30,518 nt of DNA, taken from positions 1-30,518 of the IMG/VR virus record IMGVR_UViG_3300022927_000079. One strand, given 5' to 3'. Below, in pieces: positions 23,275 through 30,055 of this stretch. The stretch's first letter is position 1. Each line of letters opens with the position of its first letter. The notes under the pieces were generated by a model. The model did not search any database. It worked only from the letters and a program-made list of their open reading frames with translations, and had not been told where the DNA came from. The DNA is from a virus. The position numbers were made by a program, and so were the translations under genes.

Positions 23275-25902
23275 ATGAATATTAGTCGTCACATCATTAA
23301 TAAAGACATTGATTATGATGGTTATAACTACAATCAATTGTGTAATCTCATAGATCGCTGGAAATACTTATTAGTATCTAAAAATGTCAAAAAGGGTAAT
23401 ACACTTGCTCTTTCTATATCCATCGTCAATCCAAACCAAATTGCGCTCACAATAGCAGCAGCTGAGTTAGGATTACAATTGTTTATCATAGACTGGCCAA
23501 TAAGTATAAAAACAATGAGTAAAACAAAACTAGGATTATTTGGTCCTGTTGATTTTACGGTTGAATGTGAATCCTTAAGAAGTATTGAAATACATCATAA
23601 AATGATTACAGAATACTCACTGAATGTTATTGCGGAAAACGAAATTGATAGTATACACGATACATATACTCCAATCTGGGGAAGGGCAAGTTCTCCTTTT
23701 CTAATAGCATCTACAAGTGGTACAACCGGTGAAGCTAAACCCATAATTTTTACACAAAAAGAAATTTACGAAATGTCTAAAAGAAATATAGATATTTTTA
23801 AATTTTATAAAGATAGTAGAGTCGGTCATACTAAAAATATGCACCATGCGAGCAGTCTTATTACAGATTTAATACCTTCTCTCATGGCATCTGACTTTCA
23901 CAGGTCTTGTTTGTATTCAGTATTGGACCCAAAAACATTTGAAAATAATGTTATACCGATTGTTAAAAAATACAAACTTGACCGATTATTAGTATATAAT
24001 ATGTTTAGTATGTTTAAGTTTTTAGAAGCACTGGGTGAAGATAACGATTATAAAATAGTAATAAACATGAGTGGGTTTAGTGCTCCAAAGAATTTCCCGG
24101 ATATTTGTAGAAAATTTAATATTGAGATTGTATCTCACTATGGTTCAATTGATACAGGTATCCCACTGCTAGTAAACTATATTACAGAGCATAGTAAATA
24201 TATTCCTAACAGTTTAGGTATATTACCTGATAAATTTTATAAGATGGAGAAACAAATGCTAATAACAAAAGATTTAATTAACAAAGATATTGATTATGAC
24301 GGTTACAATTATGAGAAGCTGTGTAGTCTTATTGATCGTTGGAAATCTTTATTTAAGAAATATGGCGCAAAGAGAGGCGATAGTATGGCCGCATCTTTGC
24401 CGGATGCAAGTATCAATCAAGTAGCACTACATTTTGCTGCAGGTGAATTGGGATTACAAATGCTTATCATTGACTTCCCCGTTTCACCAGCAACAATACA
24501 CAAAACAAAAATGGGTATGTTTGGACCTGTTGACTTTACTGTAGACAGTCCGGATATGAAACAAATAACTGTACATAGGAATATGGTTGAAAAATATTCT
24601 AAAAGAGTCATTGAGCTAGAAGAAATAGATTCTTGGTTTGAGGAGTATTCAGCCATTGAAGCCGAACCTGAGGATCCCTATTTAATTTGTTCAACAAGTG
24701 GCACTACAGGTGATGCTAGAAAAATTTTAATGTCACAGAGAGAAGTTTTCTTAACGGCAAAAAGAAATATTGGTATGTTTAGATTTAAGAAAGAACACCG
24801 CTGTGGGCATACTAAAAATATGCACCATGCAAGTAGTTTTTTAACAGACCTATTACCCTCTTTGATAGTATCTGATTTCCATAGGTCATGTATGTACACT
24901 GCTTTGGATCCTAATTCATTCGTAAACAGTGTAGTGCCTGCAATTGAAAAAGAAAAACTAGATAGAATATTAGTTTACAACACCTACAGTATGTATAGAC
25001 TGTTAGATGCTCTAGGTAAACGTGGTCCGGACACACAAAAAATTATTGTCAATATAAGTGGCTTTACCGCACCTGAAACCTTTATACAGGTATGTGAAGA
25101 TTATAACATAGAAATCTTATCCCACTATGGCTCTGTGGATATTGGATCACTTCTTGTAAATTATATAACAAAGGACAGTGTATACACTCCGGACAGTCTA
25201 GGAAATCTACCTGATGATTTTCATACATTTGAAGTAATAGACGGAGATATCTATGTAAGTAATGAGATACTTTGGAATAGTAATGAAAAAAGAAAGCTAC
25301 AAGATAACTTAGTGTATGATGAAGAAAATAAAGTGTGGCTTCACAAAGGTCGTAAGGATAGAAATCCATTAGAAGATGAAGTAAGAAAAATGTATTCAGG
25401 AGACTTTACAATAGTACAGGATAAGGATAAAAGATATCTTGCTCTTTGGGACGACACCGAAATACCTGAACAGTTTAAAATTATGTTTGATCAAATTGAA
25501 AGGTTGGACAAAGAAGTGTTTATGCCCGAGACTAAGGTTAGTGTTGACCAACTTAGGGGACACTTTCAGTATCATAAAGAGAAAAACCAAGAGATATTTT
25601 CTGTTTCTTTAAAATTCAAAAGAATCAATGAACAAGGTGAACACCCATGGAATATCATTGACCAAGAACAATTATTCGGACTATTGCGAGGTGCGTATAA
25701 CAAGTATGATATTGATCACATTCCTTTAATTGAAGAACACGATCCAATATTCGCAGCATTTACTATTGCGTCTTGTAACAAAGAATCCTTAAAAGATTTT
25801 TTTGATAACGAAGGGGCTGTTATTTACAGCATGGAAAAGATACTAGAAGAAAAATTGTTTTCTCCTAAAATTGTTTATAACGAAATTCATGCTGTATCGT
25901 AA
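23275..25902 (+). CDS. Tandemly duplicated ANL-type adenylate-forming enzyme
   Basis: An 875-aa protein of the AMP-binding (acyl/aminoacyl-adenylating) superfamily, with two copies of the N-terminal domain. Copy 1 spans about 7-326 and copy 2 about 334-652; each opens with INKDIDYDGYNY and they look about half identical by eye. Core motif A3 is STSGTTGEAK (146-155) in copy 1 and STSGTTGDAR (473-482) in copy 2. The A5-type motif is HYGSID (288-293) and HYGSVD (617-622), with Asp in place of the usual Glu. Only copy 2 continues into a C-terminal subdomain, with A8-like HKGRKDR (690-696). Residues 740-875 match nothing I know, and no clear A10 lysine motif is seen. It is the first gene of the rightward late operon and overlaps gp4 by 14 nt. 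The substrate is unknown. Confidence 0.85.
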   Translation: MNISRHIINKDIDYDGYNYNQLCNLIDRWKYLLVSKNVKKGNTLALSISIVNPNQIALTIAAAELGLQLFIIDWPISIKTMSKTKLGLFGPVDFTVECESLRSIEIHHKMITEYSLNVIAENEIDSIHDTYTPIWGRASSPFLIASTSGTTGEAKPIIFTQKEIYEMSKRNIDIFKFYKDSRVGHTKNMHHASSLITDLIPSLMASDFHRSCLYSVLDPKTFENNVIPIVKKYKLDRLLVYNMFSMFKFLEALGEDNDYKIVINMSGFSAPKNFPDICRKFNIEIVSHYGSIDTGIPLLVNYITEHSKYIPNSLGILPDKFYKMEKQMLITKDLINKDIDYDGYNYEKLCSLIDRWKSLFKKYGAKRGDSMAASLPDASINQVALHFAAGELGLQMLIIDFPVSPATIHKTKMGMFGPVDFTVDSPDMKQITVHRNMVEKYSKRVIELEEIDSWFEEYSAIEAEPEDPYLICSTSGTTGDARKILMSQREVFLTAKRNIGMFRFKKEHRCGHTKNMHHASSFLTDLLPSLIVSDFHRSCMYTALDPNSFVNSVVPAIEKEKLDRILVYNTYSMYRLLDALGKRGPDTQKIIVNISGFTAPETFIQVCEDYNIEILSHYGSVDIGSLLVNYITKDSVYTPDSLGNLPDDFHTFEVIDGDIYVSNEILWNSNEKRKLQDNLVYDEENKVWLHKGRKDRNPLEDEVRKMYSGDFTIVQDKDKRYLALWDDTEIPEQFKIMFDQIERLDKEVFMPETKVSVDQLRGHFQYHKEKNQEIFSVSLKFKRINEQGEHPWNIIDQEQLFGLLRGAYNKYDIDHIPLIEEHDPIFAAFTIASCNKESLKDFFDNEGAVIYSMEKILEEKLFSPKIVYNEIHAVS
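24246..24258 (+). promoter_or_regulatory. Internal ribosome site and ATG for second ANL copy
   Basis: GGAGA at 24246-24250 stands 5 nt before an in-frame ATG (24256-24258, codon 328) at the junction of the two copies. Translation from here would give a 548-aa complete enzyme. Its N-terminus, MLITKDLINKDIDYDG, lines up residue for residue with that of copy 1, MNISRHIINKDIDYDG. This suggests that the ATG is the ancestral start of an originally separate gene. Confidence 0.6.
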
Positions 25903-26341
25903 GGATACATATCAGGGAAAATTTATTCCAAGAAATCCTGCAAAGTATATTGGCAATATAACAAACATCATATATCGTTCAGGATATGAATTGAAGTTTA
26001 TGAATTGGTGCGATTTAAATTCAGATATACTAGAATGGGGGTCTGAAGAAGTTGTTATACCTTATCGTTCGCCTTTGGACAATAAAATACACAGATATTT
26101 TGTAGATTTTTTTGTAAAAATACAAACTAAGGAATCAGTTAGAATGTGTTTAATTGAAGTCAAACCCTTTAGATTTACACAAGAACCAAAAATACCAAAG
26201 AGAAGAACAAAAAGATTCATACAAGAAGTTAAACAATGGGGTGTAAATTTAGCTAAATGGGAAGCTGCTAAAAGTTTTTGTGAAAATCGTAACTGGGAGT
26301 TTATAATTATTACTGAAAAAGATTTAGGAATTTCCTTATAA
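25889..26341 (+). CDS. 4: Head completion protein gp4 (nuclease-fold)
   Basis: A 150-aa homologue of T4 gp4, which completes the head after DNA packaging and is related to TnsA-type nucleases. KYIGNITNIIYRSGYELKFMNWCDLN (about 18-43) and VIPYRSPLDNKIHRYFVDFFVKI (about 56-78) are followed by CLIEVKPF (about 88-95). The D in RYFVDFF and the E-x-K of IEVKP are the expected catalytic pair. KRRTKRFIQEVKQWGVNLAKWEAAKSFCENRNWEFIIITEKDL closes it. The ATG at 25889 is chosen over an upstream TTG because it gives the same length as T4 gp4. The start overlaps the ANL gene by 14 nt with no ribosome site, so translational coupling is likely. Very sure. Confidence 0.92.
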   Translation: MLYRKDTYQGKFIPRNPAKYIGNITNIIYRSGYELKFMNWCDLNSDILEWGSEEVVIPYRSPLDNKIHRYFVDFFVKIQTKESVRMCLIEVKPFRFTQEPKIPKRRTKRFIQEVKQWGVNLAKWEAAKSFCENRNWEFIIITEKDLGISL

Positions 26342-26349: not shown

Positions 26350-26925
26350 ATGGCTAATCCATTTGATAATATAAGAGCAAAAGCAGGAGACCAGGATAGA
26401 TCTTTTAACTGGTATATGACTGCGGTTAAAAAACTGAGCGGGAACTTTGATTCTTTTTCTAGTGTATCTAAAACTGATTTAGGTGAACTGACAAATCAAT
26501 TAGAACCCGGTGGAATGTATCTTTTCATTTACGATCCAAAATATGCTAGTACATTACCATACTATGATAGACTTCCTCTGTGTTTTCCATTTGATGACAT
26601 ATCAGGGGGTTTCGCAGGTCTCAATTTACACTATTTGCCTCCCCTGCTTAGAATGAAATTAATGGGTAGACTCTTAGATTATAGTGATAGAGAAATTAGT
26701 GATAAAAGTAAAATTGAAGTGAGTTGGAATATGTTAAAAGGATTCAGTAGTTTTCCTGAAGCCAAACCAACGGTAAAAAAATATTTGTATTCCCAGGTTA
26801 AAAGTAGATTTTTAAGAATAGATCCTACACACTGGAAGGCATCAATATTTTTACCACTACAATCATTTCAAAATTCAAATGCTACAGGCGTTTGGAAAGA
26901 CAGCAGAGAGTTAATAGATGGCTAG
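26350..26925 (+). CDS. Conserved-looking T4-like protein downstream of gp4
   Basis: A 191-aa protein whose style I associate with marine T4-like phages but cannot name. After a polar head (about 1-50), GGMYLFIYDPKYASTLPYYDRLPLCFPFDD (about 54-83) and GGFAGLNLHYLPPLLRMKLMGRLLDY (about 85-110) form the core. A helical region (VSWNMLKGFSSFPEAKPTVKKYLYSQVKSRFLRID) is followed by IFLPLQSFQ and GVWKDSRELI. This looks like one compact alpha/beta domain without enzyme motifs. It overlaps the next gene by 8 nt (ATGGCTAG). Gene order places it with head-completion and tail-tube genes, so a neck, tail-completion or tube-initiation role is plausible but unproven. Confidence 0.7.
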   Translation: MANPFDNIRAKAGDQDRSFNWYMTAVKKLSGNFDSFSSVSKTDLGELTNQLEPGGMYLFIYDPKYASTLPYYDRLPLCFPFDDISGGFAGLNLHYLPPLLRMKLMGRLLDYSDREISDKSKIEVSWNMLKGFSSFPEAKPTVKKYLYSQVKSRFLRIDPTHWKASIFLPLQSFQNSNATGVWKDSRELIDG

Positions 26926-27529
26926 CGCAGACAAAAATATAAACGATTTTCGTGCTCATATAAGAGGGTCATTCACTCCCCGTTCGGATAGGTTTGAAGT
27001 TCTCATAAATTTTCCGCAACCAGTACGTGATATAATACAGAGACCGGATTTTTCTAGAAATGGCCCTGATGGTATGTTTTCTTTACGGTGTGAAGAATGT
27101 CAAATACCGGGACTTGCTGCAACAACTTTACCTGTTAAATTTGGCACGTGGACGGAATACAGAGCTCAAAATGTTGAATTCCTATCACAAGAAGTTCCAT
27201 TTACTTTTGTGATGGATAGTAGATGGTCTGTACGTGAAGCATTTGAAGCCTGGATTAACTTGTGTTCTAATATGGTAAATAAAGAAGTAGAATTCCAGGA
27301 TAATGTAAAATCTGAGATGCACGTAAAAGCATTAGACTTACAGGATAAAGTAATAGGACATTGGAAGTTTTGGGATTGTACTCCGAAACTTATTAACTTA
27401 ACTCCTATGTCTTGGAGTAACAATAATCTTGTAAGAGGTTCAGTTACAATGGTTGCCAAGTATTGGACAAATGAATTTGCAACTTATAATGGCACAAATA
27501 CAGAAAGTGTTAAAGTGCAAGAAACTTAA
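26918..27529 (+). CDS. Tail-tube-fold protein (gp19/gp54-like)
   Basis: A 203-aa protein with the layout of T4 gp19-type tube proteins. FRAHIRGSFTPRSDRFEVLINFP (about 11-33) is the usual first strands. The conserved loop RCEECQIPGLAATTLPVKFG (about 57-76) corresponds to the tube-family 'PIPG' segment. EVPFTFVMDSRWSVREAFEAWINLC (about 91-115) is the strand plus helix. WDCTPKLINLTPMSWSNNNLVRGSVTMVAKYWTNEF (about 148-183) is the final strands. The sequence suits the gp19 family in general. With gp48 across the promoter region and the tape measure just downstream, a tube-initiation (gp54-like) or auxiliary tube role is more likely than the main tube, but this is not settled. Confidence 0.65.
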   Translation: MASADKNINDFRAHIRGSFTPRSDRFEVLINFPQPVRDIIQRPDFSRNGPDGMFSLRCEECQIPGLAATTLPVKFGTWTEYRAQNVEFLSQEVPFTFVMDSRWSVREAFEAWINLCSNMVNKEVEFQDNVKSEMHVKALDLQDKVIGHWKFWDCTPKLINLTPMSWSNNNLVRGSVTMVAKYWTNEFATYNGTNTESVKVQET

Positions 27530-27545
27530 TTAATTGGAGAATATA

Positions 27546-28238
27546 ATGGCTTTACCTAAAATAGATGTCCCAACATTCGATTTAGAATTGCCGGGAACAG
27601 ATACAAAATATAAGTTTAGACCCTTTTTAGTTAAAGAGGATAAACTTTTAACTTTGGCATTATCATCAGGTGAAATTCCTGATATGTTAAACGCTTGTAG
27701 ACAGATTATTGAAAATTGTTCTTTCAATAAAGTGGATACAAAAGAATTACCAATGTATTTGATACAATGGATATTTTTACAATTGAGAGCCAAATCAGTC
27801 GGTGAAACTTTTAGTTTTTCATTAAGGTGTGGCGGTTGTGAAGAAACAATGAATTATGAATGTAAAACATCTGATTTTGAAGTTGTAAATCTAGACTCAG
27901 ATATTTCAAATAAAATCGAGTTAAGTGAAAGTGCTGGTATTGTTTTAAAACATCCGACGTGTATGGTAGAAGCAGAATTAGAAGAAATGGAAGACATTGA
28001 AGTTATTAGATGTTGTACTAATTATATCTATAACGGAGATGAAATCATACAAAGTGAGGATATTCCTTCTGAAGAATTTGTTGAATTTATTGAAAGTATG
28101 CCAATACACGTGAAAGATAAAATTGTAGAATATTTAGGAAACAAACCATATCTAGAGCATATGGTAAACTTTAAGTGTAAGGGGTGTGATACTGATAACC
28201 AAGTTAGCATCAATGGTTATGAGCATTTTTTCGTTTAA
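27546..28238 (+). CDS. 26: gp26-like baseplate hub assembly protein
   Basis: A 230-aa protein of the T4 baseplate gp26 type (T4: 208 aa), needed for hub assembly. ALPKIDVPTFDLELPGTDTKYKFRPFLVKEDKLLTLAL (2-39) is the typical opening. The middle is helical (LPMYLIQWIFLQLRAKSVG). Two CxxC pairs (C95/C98 and C211/C214) look like a zinc ribbon, and a helical insertion lies between them. The start is ATG at 27546, with GGAG 6 nt upstream that matches far better than the earlier TTG. The zero-frame stop TAA (28236-28238) falls just after a T6C slippery run; a -1 shift there would extend the protein by 60 residues. It sits two genes before the tape measure, the usual place of tail assembly chaperones. 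Confidence 0.88.
   Translation: MALPKIDVPTFDLELPGTDTKYKFRPFLVKEDKLLTLALSSGEIPDMLNACRQIIENCSFNKVDTKELPMYLIQWIFLQLRAKSVGETFSFSLRCGGCEETMNYECKTSDFEVVNLDSDISNKIELSESAGIVLKHPTCMVEAELEEMEDIEVIRCCTNYIYNGDEIIQSEDIPSEEFVEFIESMPIHVKDKIVEYLGNKPYLEHMVNFKCKGCDTDNQVSINGYEHFFV
28226..28232 (+). promoter_or_regulatory. -1 frameshift slippery heptamer
   Basis: In the gp26 frame the codons read CAT TTT TTC, so the heptamer T TTT TTC fits X XXY YYZ exactly. Both tRNAs can re-pair after a one-base backward slip. The zero-frame stop follows after one more codon. The -1 frame is open from here to TAG at 28412-28414. Confidence 0.78.
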
Positions 28239-28414
28239 CTCTTTCCCAGGATTCGATCGAGAACTATTATAAGACGAATTTTTTACTTTTACAGGAGCAT
28301 CATTGGAGTTTAACAGAAATTGAGAATATGATGCCCTGGGAAAGAGAAGTATATATTAGTATGTTAATTACACACATTAAAAAGAAGAATGAAAAACAAA
28401 AACAGAGTAATTAG
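28233..28414 (+). CDS. 51: gp51-position extension in the -1 frame of gp26
   Basis: Sixty codons in the -1 frame relative to gp26, entered after the slippery site, encode RLTLSQDSIENYYKTNFLLL followed by QEHHWSLTEIENMMPWEREV and a basic helical tail ending KQKQSN. This frame has no ATG, GTG or TTG near its beginning: the preceding in-frame codon group starts after a TGA, and the first ATG lies deep inside. It therefore cannot be a normally initiated gene of this length. The W-S-L-T-E-I-E / PWERE-x-Y pattern looks like a conserved helical domain, not random sequence. In T4, gene 51 (baseplate hub assembly catalyst) follows gene 26. The fusion would be 289 residues. Naming it 51 rests on position and a partial recollection of homologues. 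Confidence 0.72.
28239..28346 (+). repeat. 12-bp inverted repeat downstream of the slippery site
   Basis: CTCTTTCCCAGG (28239-28250) and CCTGGGAAAGAG (28335-28346) are perfect reverse complements separated by 84 nt. The 5' arm begins 6 nt after the slippery heptamer, the usual spacing for a frameshift-stimulating structure. A further 5-bp hairpin is possible directly inside it (ATTCG 28251-28255 with CGAAT 28275-28279), which could stack on the long stem. Confidence 0.85.
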
Positions 28415-28417
28415 TAT

Positions 28418-30055
28418 ATGTCAAATTTAGAGGAAATAGCAGGAAGAATTAAAAACAAATCGGTTCAGAGGAATATTCAAAATAGTCCTGTGTATCGTAT
28501 TGCATCTAACCTGCAAAACAGTTCCGAAACTCTTAGCACTTTAGAAATCTCTAAAGAATCCTTAAAGGAACTGCAAGATATCCTGAAAAAAATGGGTGAC
28601 GCCCAAATTCAACAAATGAATAACGGTAAAGCTAATGATAAGCTGATTGACCGTATAATAACTGGTATTGAAAAGTTAAAGCTGGCAGGTGAAGTAGAGC
28701 TTGAAGTTATCCAAAAATTAGACCTTGAAGCTGAAGTAAAAAATGTAAAGAAAGGTAACTCAACATTAAGTTTATTAAAAGATAATTTAAGAAAATCAGC
28801 AGGTATTGATAAGGGCGCAACACCTCTACAGGGATTGGGACAATTCTTAAATCCATTGCGTCAGATGGGTATTATAAAACGTAAGGATTCTGATCCAGAA
28901 ACCGAAGCAGCTGGACTGGCGATAAAAGATGCATTAAAACCACCTGTTTCAGATAATAGTAATAATGACACCGAGGTTGAACAAAGAGAAGAAACAAGAC
29001 AAAAAGTTAAAGCTGATATTGAGTCTAGCGAAACTAATACGCCCGGTGAATCTGGTATTGAAGTAGATTCATACCAAGAAAAACAAGCTGATCATTTAAA
29101 AAGTATAGACGATACTTTAAAAGACATTAAAACTCTCATTGAACAAGGAATGGCAGGGGGCGGGGGTTTTGGCTTACCAGGCACGCCACCATTGAGGAGC
29201 AGAACACCTACTCCCGGTACACGAGGTACACGAGGTACGGCAGCTAGAAATCTGAAACCTGGCTACCGGTGGAATACTAAGTTAAATCGGTATCAAGCCC
29301 CGAACGGCCGAATTGCAAGCGCAACAGATGCACTTATTAATTCAGCAGATGATGCTTCACGTGGTAGTAGATTCTTAAAGGGTAGTGGTAGGATGTTAGG
29401 AAAAGTTGCAACACCTCTTATGGTAGGAATGGCAGCTGCGGACGCTTATGGTGGTTATCAGGAAGCCAATTCTTTAGAAGCATCAGGAGAAATAACAGGC
29501 GAACAAGCCACTGTTATGAGAAGTGAATCTGTTGGTGGTGGTGTTGGTACTGTTGGTGGTGTTCTTGCAGGTGCTGCATTGGGACAAATGCTGATTCCAA
29601 TACCATTTGTTGGAGCAGCTATAGGTGGTTTGGTAGGTGGTTTTTTAGGAGACAAAGCAGGTTCTGCTGGGGGAAATGTAGTTGGTAATATGATAAATGC
29701 CTCAAGAGAAGCTGAAGATTCAGCTGAATTGTCTGACAGATTAGACAATTTAAATATTAATGCTTCGAATGTTAATCTAAATCAATATGCACCTGAATTC
29801 AGCGGAAACGCAAATAACATAGAAACATGGTCAGCTAATGTATTACCTACAGCCGATGCTGTAGAAAATATGGGATATGACTCTGTCCAAACATCACCTA
29901 CAATTATTAATAATGTAACAAACAATAACACCTCAACAGGCGGTGGCGGTAATAGTTCACCTCTTGTCGGTGTTCCTTCTATCGGCACCAGGACCGATGA
30001 TTCTTCTATAAGACGCTTTCAGGATAATGTTTTAGGAACTAATTTTGGGTTTTAA
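28418..30055 (+). CDS. 29: Tape measure protein, gp29-like
   Basis: A 545-aa protein in the T4 gp29 position (590 aa), the ruler that sets tail length and is stored inside the tube. The N-terminal 245 residues are mainly charged helix (SKESLKELQDILKKMGDAQIQQM; IDRIITGIEKLKLAGEVELEVIQKLDLEAEV; HLKSIDDTLKDIKTLIEQGM). A Gly/Pro/Arg-rich hinge follows (245-275), then KPGYRWNTKLNRYQAPNGRIAS (280-301). A Gly/Ala-rich hydrophobic region (about 330-345 and 372-424) suits membrane insertion during DNA entry. The C-terminus is Asn/Ser-rich and ends RRFQDNVLGTNFGF. The start lies 3 nt after the stop of the gp26 frameshift extension, the classic chaperone-tape measure order. The role is well supported by features and position. 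Confidence 0.78.
   Translation: MSNLEEIAGRIKNKSVQRNIQNSPVYRIASNLQNSSETLSTLEISKESLKELQDILKKMGDAQIQQMNNGKANDKLIDRIITGIEKLKLAGEVELEVIQKLDLEAEVKNVKKGNSTLSLLKDNLRKSAGIDKGATPLQGLGQFLNPLRQMGIIKRKDSDPETEAAGLAIKDALKPPVSDNSNNDTEVEQREETRQKVKADIESSETNTPGESGIEVDSYQEKQADHLKSIDDTLKDIKTLIEQGMAGGGGFGLPGTPPLRSRTPTPGTRGTRGTAARNLKPGYRWNTKLNRYQAPNGRIASATDALINSADDASRGSRFLKGSGRMLGKVATPLMVGMAAADAYGGYQEANSLEASGEITGEQATVMRSESVGGGVGTVGGVLAGAALGQMLIPIPFVGAAIGGLVGGFLGDKAGSAGGNVVGNMINASREAEDSAELSDRLDNLNINASNVNLNQYAPEFSGNANNIETWSANVLPTADAVENMGYDSVQTSPTIINNVTNNNTSTGGGGNSSPLVGVPSIGTRTDDSSIRRFQDNVLGTNFGF

Follow-up and report, generated by a model that had tools for sequence, protein, structure and literature searches.

Genes 26 and 51 of marine T4-like phages as a probable single tail assembly chaperone gene, with a conserved slippery heptamer and a covarying downstream stem

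The tail assembly chaperones of the lambda G/GT type, reportedly described by Xu, Hendrix and Duda in 2004, comprise a short protein and a -1 frameshifted long form that share their N-terminal part, the slip site lying before the stop codon of the short form and the gene directly upstream of that for the tape measure protein. The gp26/gp51 locus reported here appears to be laid out in the same way. It departs from lambda in that no sequence relation to lambda G/T is shown, gp26 being a PF12322 protein which at 230 aa is larger than G, and in the candidate stimulator, which is either a stem closing a loop of 84 nt or a hairpin formed locally. The tail assembly chaperone (TAC) genes of Vandenendeviridae and Andersonviridae, which frameshift by -1 on a poly-T signal, GTTTTT (PMC12846349), likewise carry such a signal at the 3' end of TAC-N, with a long stretch of open -1 frame ahead of the tape measure gene; they belong to other phage families, and the heptamer here is T TTT TTN. 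T4 gp26 and gp51 have been listed as hub assembly chaperones (PMC3004832), and their genes were named T4-like TAC genes by Vladimirov, Gautam and Davidson (2022), as that work is cited in PMC10885494 and PMC12846349; the latter (2025), again citing Vladimirov et al., has poly-T frameshift signals in T4-like TAC-N genes as known. The principle is already known from lambda G/GT, and the T4-like case is probably known too. What is added here is the breadth of the conservation, a covarying stem within the codons of a PWERE motif, the existence of two types of stimulator, and an SD-like motif; among the papers searched we found none on any of these.

The window, the whole stretch of DNA analysed, comes from a marine T4-like virus and is 30,518 nucleotides long (positions 1 to 30,518 of IMG/VR virus record IMGVR_UViG_3300022927_000079), and the features of the junction all lie on its plus strand. 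The gp26 frame (27546-28238), corresponding to a short form, TAC-N, of 230 aa, ends in CAT TTT TTC GTT TAA: the slippery heptamer T TTT TTC, in gp26 phase at 28226-28232, is separated by one sense codon from the TAA stop at 28236-28238. A spacer of 6 nt, GTTTAA, leads from the heptamer to the 5' arm (28239-28250) of a perfect 12-bp inverted repeat, termed P1, whose 3' arm (28335-28346) lies 84 nt further on, within codons of the conserved PWERE motif. Folding of 28233-28350 gives -32.3 kcal/mol (z -3.96) and adds an inner helix in which CATCAT (28298-28303) pairs with ATGATG (28328-28333). The -1 frame is open from 28223, just after a TGA at 28220-28222, and the C-terminal extension annotated as 'gp51' occupies 60 codons of it plus the closing TAG (28232-28414, TAG at 28412-28414), ending 3 nt ahead of the next gene, whose ATG is at 28418; the frameshifted long form would be of 289 aa. 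The earliest ATG in the -1 frame, at 28328, falls inside the conserved MMPWERE motif, and the frame is therefore without a start of its own. The heptamer, the 6-nt spacer, the perfect repeat and the startless 60-codon frame ending 3 nt before the next ATG are thus all as the original prediction had described them. T TTT TTC is in itself not rare in the AT-rich window, with 16 copies against 12.6 expected; it is the placement and conservation of this copy that carry weight, not its mere presence.

At the protein level, gp26 is a full-length match to the PF12322 T4_baseplate family (5e-46; 157.6 bits against a curated cut-off of 24.5), and its residues 1-229 align with positions 5-232 of the 282 in the phrog_150 profile (6.1e-49). 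The -1 frame matches phrog_634, 'baseplate hub assembly catalyst' (1.6e-26), and takes up the phrog_150 match again over profile positions 232-277; since phrog_150 spans both frames, the database profile itself treats them as one protein. The preceding gene (26918-27529, plus strand) encodes a tail tube protein (phrog_45 tail tube, 5.4e-24). Directly downstream of gp26/gp51, as for G/GT-type chaperones, is a gene for a probable tape measure protein of 545 aa (28418-30055, plus strand), whose match to phrog_794 tail length tape measure (2.8e-10) covers part of the protein only.

Three other reading frames of the window gave observations of their own. An 875-aa ORF in the structural cluster (23275-25902) has an internal duplication, with two AMP-binding (PF00501) stretches (6.7e-13), an acyl-adenylating-like enzyme being unusual for a phage structural region; a 156-aa ORF (25871-26341) has a TnsA-like N-terminal domain (3.6e-22) and is probably a T4 gp4-type head completion protein; and a 235-aa ORF on the minus strand (680-1387) has a sub-threshold match to glycosyltransferase family 2 (0.0046).

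An AlphaFold2 model of gp26 made from 58 gp26 proteins reached a pLDDT of 92.9. VIA-align over the Foldseek list placed 3fgx at the top (Z 8.1, 85 of 96 residues) and 3klu, YqbN, second (Z 6.8), the remainder scoring 4.1 and lower; 3fgx and 3klu are both called tail assembly chaperones (PMC9603447). Foldseek alone found no significant match to the gp26 model in the PDB, searching the PDB sequences with a gp26 profile returned chance matches only, and the best viral models matching the gp26 fold were gp26-type baseplate hub proteins. The modelled N-terminal domain of gp26 is predicted to have the TAC fold.

Because the window protein as lone query found only near-identical contigs, alignments were used as queries. 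Scans of viral and genome contigs, together with isolates, yielded 265 loci carrying both parts, or 194 once near-copies were removed, shared descent inflating all junction, stem and SD-like counts drawn from them. The gp51 frame is the -1 frame of gp26 in all 194 of these junctions, and in 191 the gp26 stop is closely preceded by T TTT TTN in phase (N being C in 143, T in 35, A in 10 and G in 3). The stop comes 0-9 nt past the heptamer in most and 24-27 nt past it in 12 (L051, L058, L061, L064, L067, L073, L080, L087, L096, L124, L149 and L176), so that the short form of these 12 has a longer tail of its own. Among 505 control ORFs from these loci, 2 had T TTT TTN in phase no more than 9 nt from the stop, as against 192 of the 211 gp26 ORFs. 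At 148 distinct heptamer sites the codon before TTT varies (GAT, AGT, AAT, CAT, TCT or GCT, for D, S, N, H or A) and always ends in T, and the first Phe codon is TTT at every one; these sites were picked partly by presence of the heptamer, yet only 3 of the 194 junctions lack it. Of 136 FF pairs in other parts of these genes, 70 begin with TTT and 26 follow a T. Conservation of the heptamer, which the original prediction had proposed as a check, is thus extensive.

The -1 frameshift cassette of the E. coli dnaX type consists of an upstream SD, an X XXY YYZ heptamer (A6G) and a downstream stem. The present junctions resemble it in their X XXY YYZ heptamer, in a stem 5-6 nt downstream and in that roughly half of the relatives have an SD-like motif some 10 nt upstream; they differ in that the heptamer is T6N, not A6G, and that the window itself has no SD-like motif upstream of its heptamer. 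GGAG, GAGG, AGGA or GGGA is found 8-18 nt upstream of the heptamer in 54% of relatives, compared with 4-16% for other positions scanned; GAGG most often leaves exactly 10 nt to the heptamer, and the Glu codon at the SD-like site is GAG in 58 of 94 cases against a background of 24%.

On the downstream side a canonical -1 signal has a structure 5-9 nt past the heptamer, and the 12-bp stem of the window begins after 6 nt. Scanning of 125 junctions of less than 85% identity showed the 60-nt folding z-score to be lowest at +5 to +65 (mean -1.27, with 29% below -2), other 60-nt segments giving means of -0.70 to +0.06, bar the overlapping one at +10. The stem had originally been given a chance probability of around 1 in 10^5, a figure that ignores the coding in both arms. 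The 3' arm of P1 encodes the near-invariant PWERE, and even with a real frameshift the stem might be a mere by-product of the coding constraint on LSQ and PWERE. Across 148 junctions aligned without gaps, a mean of 9.47 of the 12 P1 pairs are formed. Redrawing codons synonymously lowers this to 7.78 +/- 0.10, whereas permuting codons among sequences that share the residue at that site keeps much of the pairing, at 9.04 +/- 0.045; the observed value nevertheless lies above all 500 of these position-specific shuffles (maximum 9.17). Columns 20-125 alternate between C-G (65) and U-A (33), columns 23-122 between U-A (62) and C-G (36), and P1 cells changed on both sides number 102, against 49 +/- 5 in the shuffles: the compensatory changes anticipated from a functional stem are there, and the stem passes the codon-aware test that the first estimate had lacked. 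P1 is thus kept beyond synonymous-codon expectation and covaries, despite overlying protein-conserved codons. Also at odds with a by-product is the behaviour of the 62 of 148 junctions without P1, where local hairpins are stronger (mean -10.3 versus -6.7 kcal/mol over 60 nt), and overall we consider that explanation of the stem improbable. RNAalifold on the 148-junction alignment gave no single consensus structure; the stem is therefore not universal and the stimulator heterogeneous, and the P1-less relatives with their local hairpins may be the reason for the missing consensus. S-PM2, for one, has a hairpin of 14 bp (z -3.84), and L046 has the hairpin GCGTTAATGC. The inner helix is weakly conserved among relatives, with 57.5% of cells paired, and Rfam gave no match.

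The reading we hold to be very probable, on sequence grounds, is that of one tail assembly chaperone gene with two products, made by a programmed -1 frameshift on T TTT TTC, as originally predicted; the constant -1 relation, the near-constant heptamer and the covariation of the stem all support it. Most ribosomes would end gp26 at the TAA at 28236 to give the short form. A minority would slip back one base on the heptamer, two tRNAs re-pairing on TTT TTT with the aid of the stem that starts 6 nt later, and would read the 60 further codons to give the long form, TAC-NC. If lambda G/GT is a guide, the short and long forms would join in a mixed polymer that holds the tape measure protein and brings in subunits of the tail tube or hub. 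The analysis shows sequence, conservation, covariation, homology, copy number and fold similarity; the slippage, its rate and the function of the two products are inferred.

Public annotations tell another story for many relatives, in which gp51 is entered as a separate gene; in the isolate records examined the two parts are mostly separate genes, or the second part is without annotation. Such a gene would have its own start and be translated by coupling or re-initiation past the gp26 stop, and a few distant phages do have an overlapping TAATG at the junction (L013, L017 and L019, the last with the heptamer besides). We find this very unlikely as the general explanation: no ATG, GTG or TTG precedes the conserved block in the second frame of 178 of the 194 junctions, bearing out the expected absence of a start; the -1 frame opens merely 7-13 nt before the gp26 stop in many relatives; translational coupling has no need of T TTT TTN; and T4 gp51 contains a gp26-like domain. 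The conserved homopolymer run, 7-9 T long in 36 of 191 cases, could also point to RNA polymerase slipping on the T run, to yield some transcripts with a base added or missing. In 155 of the 191, however, the run has just six T, which is short for polymerase slippage, the X XXY YYZ phase is always kept though polymerase slippage does not call for it, and both the stem downstream and the SD-like motif upstream are stimulators of ribosomes; transcriptional slippage seems to us less probable again. As to the possibility that the two frames are really continuous, through a sequencing or assembly error or decay of the gene, a homopolymer run in a single contig is where a miscounted base might be suspected, and a T too many or too few in the run had been named at the outset as a ground for refutation. 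The junction is identical in two other IMG/VR assemblies (L001, L002) and is therefore not a read error, and the frame relation is the same in 194 of 194 junctions; we regard error or decay as refuted.

The slip site has its exceptions. The T6 run is absent in three distant isolates (L013, L015 and L016), though their second frame is again the -1 frame. At the TAATG junctions, those of L013 (Cygsa01), L017 (Vibrio D532) and L019 (Vibrio F86), the last with T TTT TTC as well, coupled initiation is possible. The Ackermannviridae L015 and L016 read GAG ATT TTC ATT TAA at the junction, with neither T6 nor ATG, nor TAATG. Some lineages, those without T6, would use another route to the long form.

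T4 has the same family of proteins in a different arrangement. Its genes 26 and 51 are neighbours, as stated in the original prediction, but lie on opposite strands and have no slip site; both products are PF12322 proteins. The match of T4 gp26 (208 aa) to phrog_150 runs as far as position 235, and that of gp51 (249 aa), a single uninterrupted ORF, covers 13-280 by hmmscan and 3-281 when the genome was searched; the window's long form matches T4 gp51 between residues 19 and 273. T4 gp51 is accordingly a whole long form that includes this C-terminal extension, and not just the extension, as had been supposed. Judged by their sequences, T4 gp26 and gp51 are paralogues, one the short form and the other the short form fused to the extension, and T4 and its close relatives would obtain from this pair the two products that frameshifting would provide elsewhere. 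Among 16 isolate genomes PF12322 occurs twice in T4 and once in each of the other 15; the window record, a fragment, has one copy. The window is without the two-gene arrangement, which is a T-even trait and no condition of family membership. At least 80% of gp51 is matched in 1334 records, and the rows sampled from these are single uninterrupted pieces. At the position of the slip site T4 gp26 reads GAG TTC TTT GAG, which is not slippery, and the other T-even gp26 ends are likewise without T6. T-even gp26, T-even gp51 and the frameshift family separate in an unrooted tree, each well supported; the tree cannot be rooted, and does not itself prove the T-even split to be the derived state. T4 gp26 (L004:503-1129) also weakly matches the gp28 family phrog_1140 (9.4e-4), and gp28 may be a third relative of gp26 and gp51.

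The tape-measure-like neighbour, the chaperone-like fold of the gp26 model and the short and long paralogues of T4 all support the proposed equivalence of gp26/gp51 with G/GT. We lean towards the view that genes 26 and 51 of T4-like phages outside the T-evens are one frameshift gene whose two types of downstream stimulator are interchangeable, the one a long-range stem with its 3' arm in the PWERE codons and the other a local hairpin, and that in the T-evens this gene split into short and fused long paralogues, with loss of the slip site. In most marine T4-like phages, what is called 'gene 51' would then be the final part of the gp26 long form rather than a gene. This would tie the long-standing T4 hub proteins gp26 and gp51, of hitherto unclear role, to the G/GT chaperone mechanism, and would offer a natural comparison of frameshifting and gene duplication as ways to set the ratio of short to long form.
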